Shown here: piece after piece, positions 17,589 to 21,476 of the stretch
How the letters are laid out: each line of letters opens with the position of its first letter
How positions within the stretch are numbered: position 1 is the first letter of the stretch
DNA from: a virus
IMG/VR virus record: IMGVR_UViG_3300030333_007227
Span: 1 to 23,240 of that record
Strand: one strand, 5' to 3'
Length of the DNA stretch: 23,240 nt
Notes under the pieces: generated by a model
Told to the model about the DNA's origin: nothing
Databases searched by the model: none
Seen by the model: the letters and a program-made list of their open reading frames with translations, nothing else
Program-made: the position numbers and the translations under genes

Positions 17589-18629
17589 TCACTTTTCTAT
17601 CTCTAATGATATCCAATCATAAGTTCTACGAATACCTTCCTCAAGAGGTAACGAATAATCCCATCCAAGTTTTTCACGAATCAAATCATTATTAGAATTA
17701 CGTCCTCTTACTCCTAAAGGACCATCAATATGTTTCTTGGAGATATTTTTACCAGCAACCTTAGCAGTAATATCTACCAACTGATTTATACTAACCATTT
17801 CTTCAGAACCAATATTAACTGGTCCTAAGAAATCAGATTGCATCATTCTATAAGTTGCTTCAACACATTCATCTATAAAGAGGAAGGATCTGGTTTGTTC
17901 TCCGTCCCCCCATACCTCAATTGTATCGGTATCTCCCGCATACGCAACCTTTCTGCATATTGCTGCTGGAGCTTTCTCTCTACCACCTTCCCAGGTTCCT
18001 TCTGGTCCGAAAATATTATGGTAACGGGCAATCCTAACAGGAATACCATGGTTACGATTGTAAGCCAAGTACAGTCTCTCTGAAAAAAGTTTCTCCCATC
18101 CATATTCGGAATCTGGTGCAGCTGGGTATGCGGAATCTTCACGGCAATCAGGGTTATCTGGGTCTAGTTGGTTATGCTCTGGGTACATACATGCTGATCC
18201 AGAATAGAATATCTTTGTCTTATTCTGACTAGTAAAGTCATTCATTCTACGCTGCTGTTCTAATACATTCAAATTAATTTGAACTGAATTATGCAGTATC
18301 TCAGCATCATTCTCACCAGTAAATACAAATCCTGCACCACCCATGTCAGCAGCAAACTGATAGATGTAATCAAAATTTTCTATGTATCTACTAGGAACTT
18401 CATTATAAAAATTACCTCGTACTCCTTTAAATCCTAAACATTTAGCAACAAATCTTTCATCACGAAGATCTCCATATATAAATTCATGTGCTTCTGTATC
18501 AGAAAACTCAGGTGATTTAAGATCCACACCACGTACCCAATAACCTTCTTTACGAAGTCTCTTGACCATGTGACTGCCGATAAAACCACCTGCACCTAAT
18601 ACAAGTGCAGTTCCTTTATAATCGTTCAT
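17589..18629 (-). CDS. gme: GDP-mannose 3,5-epimerase
   Basis: A 346-aa extended SDR that closely matches plant-type GME, which converts GDP-D-mannose to GDP-L-galactose (and GDP-L-gulose). The NAD loop is G12-G15-G18. 'FAADMGGAGF' at 92-101 and 'SGSACMYP' at 143-150, with C147 as the presumed acid/base Cys, are diagnostic. Y176xxxK180 ('YGWEK') is the redox pair, and 'RYHNIFGPEGTWEGGREKAP' at 202-221 includes the second acid/base K219. 'WGDGEQTRSFLFIDECVEA' follows. The middle of the gene (about 17870-18190) is visibly richer in G+C than its neighbours. It has its own promoter (18654-18682) and no overlap with the next gene. In this cluster it would feed L-galactose or a derivative to the transferases. 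Confidence 0.93.
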   Translation of the reverse strand: MNDYKGTALVLGAGGFIGSHMVKRLRKEGYWVRGVDLKSPEFSDTEAHEFIYGDLRDERFVAKCLGFKGVRGNFYNEVPSRYIENFDYIYQFAADMGGAGFVFTGENDAEILHNSVQINLNVLEQQRRMNDFTSQNKTKIFYSGSACMYPEHNQLDPDNPDCREDSAYPAAPDSEYGWEKLFSERLYLAYNRNHGIPVRIARYHNIFGPEGTWEGGREKAPAAICRKVAYAGDTDTIEVWGDGEQTRSFLFIDECVEATYRMMQSDFLGPVNIGSEEMVSINQLVDITAKVAGKNISKKHIDGPLGVRGRNSNNDLIREKLGWDYSLPLEEGIRRTYDWISLEIEK

Positions 18630-20864: not shown

Positions 20865-21476
20865 TCACTGCCATGGTGGCCCTAAAGACCATAAAACTAA
20901 ACTGTATCTTGTACCACTTGTTATAGGAGTAACTCTATGTGGAATAAAACTAGGAAATACAGTAAGAGATCCTTTAGGTCTTATCTCATCACAAGTTTTA
21001 ATTCTATCTTTACCACTAACAGAACCAAAATCAAATTCCAAATTACCCCCTTCATATTCATTACCATCCACAAGATTAACAGTCATACTTATCTTTCTAA
21101 CTGTTCCCATAGAAGTTGATACATTACCTGATTCATAATCATATAAGTAACCTCCAGTATATGTAGCATTAAAATCGGAGCCACCATCAACATGCCAATC
21201 ATAAAACTGATCTATTCCATATTTGGTAAACTGTATTTTTTCACCACCAGTAATTTTCCAAAACCAACCCGATTGAGCATTAGCTTCCTTAACAGCAGGA
21301 ATTATTAAATCATAAATTGATTTATCTGTCAACCAAGCAATCTCACTATTTCTAACACCTTGCTTTTTATTAGTATATGCTTTAACCAATTTCTCCTCAC
21401 CAATAGAAATTATCTCATCACATATATGTGATGAGATAAAGGAAGGAAAATGCACATAAGGAACTTTTAAGAACAT
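20865..21476 (-). CDS. 2-oxoglutarate/Fe(II)-dependent hydroxylase (PKHD/prolyl-4-hydroxylase type)
   Basis: A 203-aa dioxygenase typical of T4-like cyanophages. The double-stranded beta-helix shows the iron ligands H95-x-D97 ('FYDWHVDGG') and H180 ('FIPHRVTP'), with R190 ('[10 protein letters not shown]') for 2-oxoglutarate. '[20 protein letters not shown]' at 127-146 is the usual core. An insert at about 100-125, rich in Tyr, Gly and Ser, separates the HxD motif from the core. The target is unknown; protein or nucleotide hydroxylation is usual in phages. Codons 13-22 lie in a perfect 30-bp palindrome. The preceding 49-aa ORF ends directly before this ATG. Confidence 0.93.
21410..21439. repeat. 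Perfect 30-bp palindrome inside the hydroxylase gene
   Basis: Fifteen bases (21410-21424, TTATCTCATCACATA) are followed without spacer by their exact reverse complement (21425-21439). The flanking bases do not pair. On the minus strand it codes for '[11 protein letters not shown]' of the hydroxylase, 38 bases after the start codon. The mRNA would fold into a long A/U-rich hairpin, and the DNA could form a cruciform or bind a dimeric protein. Confidence 0.9.

Follow-up and report, generated by a model that had tools for sequence, protein, structure and literature searches.

A perfect, spacerless 30-bp palindrome inside an oxygenase gene of a P-SSM2-like (Salacisavirus-like) cyanophage is a real, non-random feature. 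Judging from the sequences of its relatives, we consider it likely that template switching during replication homogenises this coding quasi-palindrome and so keeps it near-perfect. The palindrome itself was probably made by template switching as well, and it needs no function of its own. This best-supported cause was absent from the four ideas offered in the original prediction, which had been drawn from the letters of the DNA; in spirit it is a recombination-type scar.

The palindrome in the oxygenase gene

The prediction that an exact 30-bp inverted repeat without spacer lies at 21410-21439 of the window (the whole stretch of 23,240 nucleotides that was analysed) was reproduced with exact coordinates and sequence, and the gene described there as a hydroxylase matched the PF13640 profile of 2OG-Fe(II) oxygenases (E 1.5e-11, 45.6 bits versus a cutoff of 27). 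The features are listed in Table 1. The two arms are 15 nt each and 100% complementary, with 0 nt between them, and the symmetry ends abruptly at the palindrome edges, where the next 18 flanking pairs are mismatched. The palindrome begins 37 bp inside the coding region and covers codons 13 (second base) to 23 (first base) of the minus-strand reading frame, so that third codon positions face third positions; its centre falls inside the Ile18 codon, and first positions are partnered with second positions. The (I)CDEI(I) motif of the right arm recurs across many homologs, and the left arm encodes ISSxI. In an alignment of six sequences His95, Asp97, His180 and Arg190 of the oxygenase were invariant, giving the HxD...H iron ligands and the downstream Arg. 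Some homologs of this oxygenase are labelled ferrochelatase (RefSeq phage records NC_070962.1 and NC_070964.1, and phrog_3531), which is probably a naming error.

Table 1. Positions in the window of the palindrome, its parts and the neighbouring features.
Feature	Position	Strand	Remarks
2OG-Fe(II) oxygenase, 203 aa	20865..21476	-	PF13640, phrog_61
Isolated single-arm 13-mer TTATCTCATCACA	20981..20993	+	same gene; encodes CDEI of KTCDEIRPK
Perfect spacerless 30-bp palindrome TTATCTCATCACATATATGTGATGAGATAA	21410..21439	.	oxygenase codons 13-23, gene on minus strand
Right arm, coding strand TATGTGATGAGATAA	21410..21424	-	encodes widely shared (I)CDEI(I) motif
Central TATA	21423..21426	.	hairpin tetraloop in predicted fold; AATT in L002
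Left arm, coding strand TTATCTCATCACATA	21425..21439	-	encodes F-ISSHI; outgroup homologs L003/L051 differ (VLKPEI / ALKPEI)
Small ORF upstream of oxygenase, 49 aa	21477..21626	-	protein 100% identical to a hypothetical protein of P-SSM2 (Prochlorococcus phage)

The claim that such a palindrome exceeds chance also held. From base composition, 8.8e-5 perfect palindromes of this length are expected per window, and the 4^-15 formula used in the prediction gives about 2e-5. When the codons of the window's genes were shuffled synonymously 200 times, the longest arm obtained was 13, never 15. No other perfect palindrome of at least 22 bp occurs within the window, and in 727 kb of viral DNA, a total that counts overlapping loci repeatedly, the only distinct perfect palindromes of at least 22 bp were the one in the window and its homolog in the relative L002. 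The proposed search for other copies returned none in the 23-kb record, where only the single-arm 13-mer at 20981-20993 was found, and the strict arm pattern, scanned across the viral collection, matched this gene alone, in two contigs. A repeated or mobile element was rejected on both of these counts, and also because the homologs L003 and L051 show no insertion difference at the palindrome codons. The 13-mer lies about 430 bases downstream of the palindrome, is lost or degraded in L002 and L049, and recurs because CDEI is encoded again by identical codons; arm conversion from it is possible but unneeded. An assembly artefact was judged unlikely, since a contig from a different sample (L001) has the same 30 bases.

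Relatives and paired changes

L002, whose protein is 93% identical to that of the window, carries a different perfect 30-bp palindrome. The proteins of L049 and L050 are 58% identical to the window's, with 13 of the 15 palindrome pairs in Watson-Crick form, and L156/L157, about 76% identical to L049, keep 12 of 15 pairs plus two G-U. L003 and L051/L052 (56%) read LKPEICD(R/E)II and lack the palindrome; at the right-arm site L051 has TTTGTGATGAGATAA, but its left arm does not match. Of the 54 distinct homologous sites compared, the five distinct carriers fold at z values of -3.8 or lower, and the 49 non-carriers average 5.3 pairs out of 15 (z -0.45).

A degenerate scan of the viral collection for SSxICDEI returned 30 stretches. 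Among these, homologs of the oxygenase came from only four contigs, all already known and all with 13-15 of the 15 pairs, and unrelated ORFs encoding the same residues had just 5-10. The outcome that would have counted against the original prediction, the same residues in related phages without pairing bases, was therefore absent. Residues and palindrome thus occur together within the family, as would be expected if the left arm had been written from the right. When phage records were searched at the nucleotide level with the region surrounding the palindrome, the only matches were weak and due to chance, and no relative was confirmed in bacterial and archaeal genomes.

Several of the differences among carriers fall on palindrome partners. 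A mirrored A/T swap separates the window from L002: its two differences lie at partner positions, changing His17 to Gln and leaving Ile18 silent; given two changes in 30 bp, partner placement by chance is about 1-4%. About 11 bases from the palindrome edge, L002 has a further multinucleotide difference at CDS positions 24-26 (window ~21451-21453), AAG in place of GCA in the window, which changes His9 to Ser. In L156 one pair has gone from T-A to C-G, a mirrored change with amino-acid replacements on both sides (Ser15 to Pro and Glu21 to Gly). The third pattern was found between L049 and L050, which differ at 6 positions in 2,685 bp (99.78% identity). Palindrome partners account for two of these 6, and through them the 26-bp segments of the two contigs are exact reverse complements of each other. 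This flip exchanges an A.C mismatch for G.T and does not restore pairing. That 6 random substitutions should include a pair of partners has p = 6.5e-5, before the correct bases are demanded, and the clustering of 4 of the 6 differences within 38 bp has p = 1.5e-4. Simulating the three patterns jointly from an L002-like ancestor gave about 5e-5, a rough and post hoc value; the probabilities of the mirrored changes and of the flip were likewise computed after the data had been seen. For the inversion between the L049/L050 mismatches to be artefactual, assembly words of about 8 bases would presumably be needed.

A general scan of the related contigs for mirrored changes returned one other case, a 16-bp palindrome, TTCAAATTAATTTGAA, in an epimerase gene (minus strand, 17589-18629). 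There a mirrored A-T to G-C change against L002 at window positions 18267 and 18274 leaves the protein unchanged. This palindrome is possibly another template-switch product.

Template switching as the probable cause

In the proposed mechanism a nascent strand, having copied one arm, would briefly switch to the other template strand or fold back on itself, copy the inverted arm and then return to the original template. The right arm (ICDEI) would have given rise to the left arm (ISSxI); the seed was perhaps AAATTT, a self-complementary sequence present in palindrome-less relatives. The result would be tolerated because third codon positions pair together, so that most swaps are silent or mild. 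The way in which the palindrome varies among relatives is the deciding evidence. The flip between L049 and L050 turns A.C into G.T and is imperfect both ways, and selection for pairing therefore fails to explain it; a mismatch-for-mismatch flip is what polymerase template switching between inverted-repeat arms is expected to produce. Independent substitution is a poor account of it.

The locus agrees with the marks by which template-switch sites are recognised. Arms of about 9 bp or more with a short spacer or none are represented here by 15-bp arms without spacer, inversion of an inner segment between close relatives by the L049/L050 26-mers, and homogenisation of arms at mirrored pairs by the window/L002 and L156 changes, although selection could mimic the last of these. 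Among the relatives no ancestor with one arm alone changed was found, and we infer the creation step for that reason. An alignment of ten sequences with trees placed the outgroup as palindrome-less, but the oxygenase gene is mosaic, so the polarity, and with it the ancestral state at the palindrome site, is uncertain. L049:769-1344 and L003:1706-2305 share 86% of bases after codon 57 and 65% before it, which suggests recombination within the gene.

Against template switching, the window/L002 and L156 changes, taken by themselves, would also be compatible with compensatory substitution driven by selection on pairing. Pair-count shuffles on the five distinct carriers were weak, with 39-99 of 500 reaching the observed values. 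In the sense RNA, G-U pairing lengthens the stems of L156 and L049/L050, a feature slightly more in keeping with selection on RNA than with homogenisation of DNA alone.

The mechanism is already known; what is new is a natural example of unusual clarity, in a gene of a P-SSM2-like cyanophage. According to PMC8604942, the template-switch model goes back to Ripley (1982), who put it forward first, in bacteriophage, and quasipalindrome mutation hotspots include thyA of E. coli, for which organism quasipalindrome assays are also described (PMC7202029). These hotspots resemble the present locus in that the mechanism works on imperfect inverted repeats and perfects them; they are laboratory mutation spectra, whereas this is a natural multi-state locus. 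A close likeness is seen in yeast coding genes, in which arm homogenisation and spacer inversion have both been documented (PMC8604942). The Saccharomyces cerevisiae cases share with ours a short coding inverted repeat, homogenised arms, inversion of an inner segment between close relatives and amino-acid changes. They differ in that ours lies in a cyanophage gene with 15-bp arms and no spacer, comes from metagenomic contigs rather than a phylogeny of cultured strains, and flips a mismatch pair within the arms instead of the spacer. Template switching also creates and maintains RNA hairpins (PMC8794818), where, as would hold here, apparently compensatory changes can arise in one mutational event; those are functional RNA genes, whereas this stem is protein-coding, with at most a hypothetical RNA role. 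Perfect inverted repeats with both arms translated are likewise present in the mitochondrial coding sequences of Nematomorpha (PMC6649704), but there they are numerous and reach 284 bp, and the phage has a single 30-bp case. In the literature on cyanophage hairpins and on T4 templated mutations nothing specific was found, and natural cases in phage coding DNA seem little described in the open-access literature. Mirrored base changes are often read as proof of a selected RNA structure. A flip without gain of pairing points instead to a mutational cause in wild phages, and the case also shows that a single step, with no adaptation involved, can replace several neighbouring enzyme residues.

Alternative readings and the surroundings of the gene

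A functional hairpin in the sense transcript, whose pairing is selected and which adjusts how the oxygenase operon is translated, how stable its mRNA is or how RNase processes it, is unlikely but keeps its place as a rival. The predicted hairpin occupies nucleotides 38-67 of the coding region, with a stem of 13 bp and a loop of 4 nt, and the 30-mer is predicted to fold at -16.3 kcal/mol (z -6.2). For the hairpin, RNase-site and protein-binding-site ideas of the original prediction alike, positive support is limited to this strong predicted folding. Selected pairing in RNA is consistent with the two mirrored changes among relatives, and at unpaired or G-U positions the carriers favour G-U over A-C in the sense strand (~6 versus 2 distinct positions, not significant). 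The L049/L050 flip argues against it, as it swaps imperfect pairs of which A.C is unpaired in the sense RNA. Conservation points both ways: between L002 and L049 the palindrome codons are more conserved than their flanks (30/33 versus 42/66 nt), but between L049 and L156 the palindrome, at 79%, falls below flanks at 85%. The homologs L003 and L051 are hairpin-less (z 0.8 and 0.15), and downstream of the L003 oxygenase lies the PF01050-like gene that the window has there too. No Rfam family matched at gathering thresholds, and a covariation test on the five distinct sequences gave 2 covarying pairs, with 58 of 500 shuffles equally good. A scan for intrinsic terminators returned a weak match with 4 G-C among 13 pairs and the tail TTTCTATTGG; termination there would leave a transcript that reaches only about 70 nt into the gene.

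It is also conceivable, and slightly more doubtful than the selected hairpin, that both processes act together: near the start of an auxiliary metabolic gene, a functional hairpin in the sense strand would be kept paired by template switching while the N-terminal peptide shifts (ISSH, ISSQ, VPPQ). One mutational process would then edit RNA structure and a protein segment together.

Chance, in the form of a codon coincidence within a conserved peptide that relatives inherited and that then drifted, is very unlikely. Since third bases face third bases, only five wobble pairs need to match once the peptide is fixed, and at the codon usage of the window 0.12% of synonymous sequences are then palindromic, or 0.17% if residue 17 is Gln. 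The scanning of very many windows will turn up such cases. Drift, however, predicts neither the exact flip of L049/L050 nor the mirrored changes of window/L002 and L156.

Binding of a dimeric protein, such as a regulator, nuclease or packaging factor, to the palindrome as double-stranded DNA appears still less probable. The perfect dyad symmetry would suit this reading, and a dimer would be indifferent to the flip. The palindrome nevertheless lies 37 bp inside a coding region and occurs once in the 23-kb record, its strict arm pattern is confined in the viral collection to two contigs of this family, and variation affects several bases of the arms as well as the two at the centre. We know of no binding consensus that can be recognised in the palindrome, and its half-site order, TCACA-N4-TGTGA, is presumably the opposite of the CRP order.

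The least probable reading, to which we give hardly any weight, is a recombination scar at the junction of the conserved backbone with the variable glycan cluster, as the original prediction had suggested. The junction itself is real and close: DNA homology to P-SSM2 stops at 21475, 36 bp from the palindrome edge, which places the junction at the oxygenase start codon. Together with the 49-aa ORF upstream, which falls below the 60-aa limit of the ORF listing, this end of homology makes the oxygenase the first gene of a variable sugar-nucleotide/glycosyltransferase cluster. In L049, L050 and L156, however, the oxygenase directly follows a phrog_552-like gene in place of the 49-aa ORF, and the palindrome sits at the same codons. 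Because relatives have it with a different upstream gene, the palindrome appears to belong to the gene and not to the junction, and the scar is largely refuted.

At the other end of the window, positions 18-227 on the minus strand encode a 69-aa protein with a weak match to PF00504 (chlorophyll a/b-binding), which fits a phage high-light-inducible protein.
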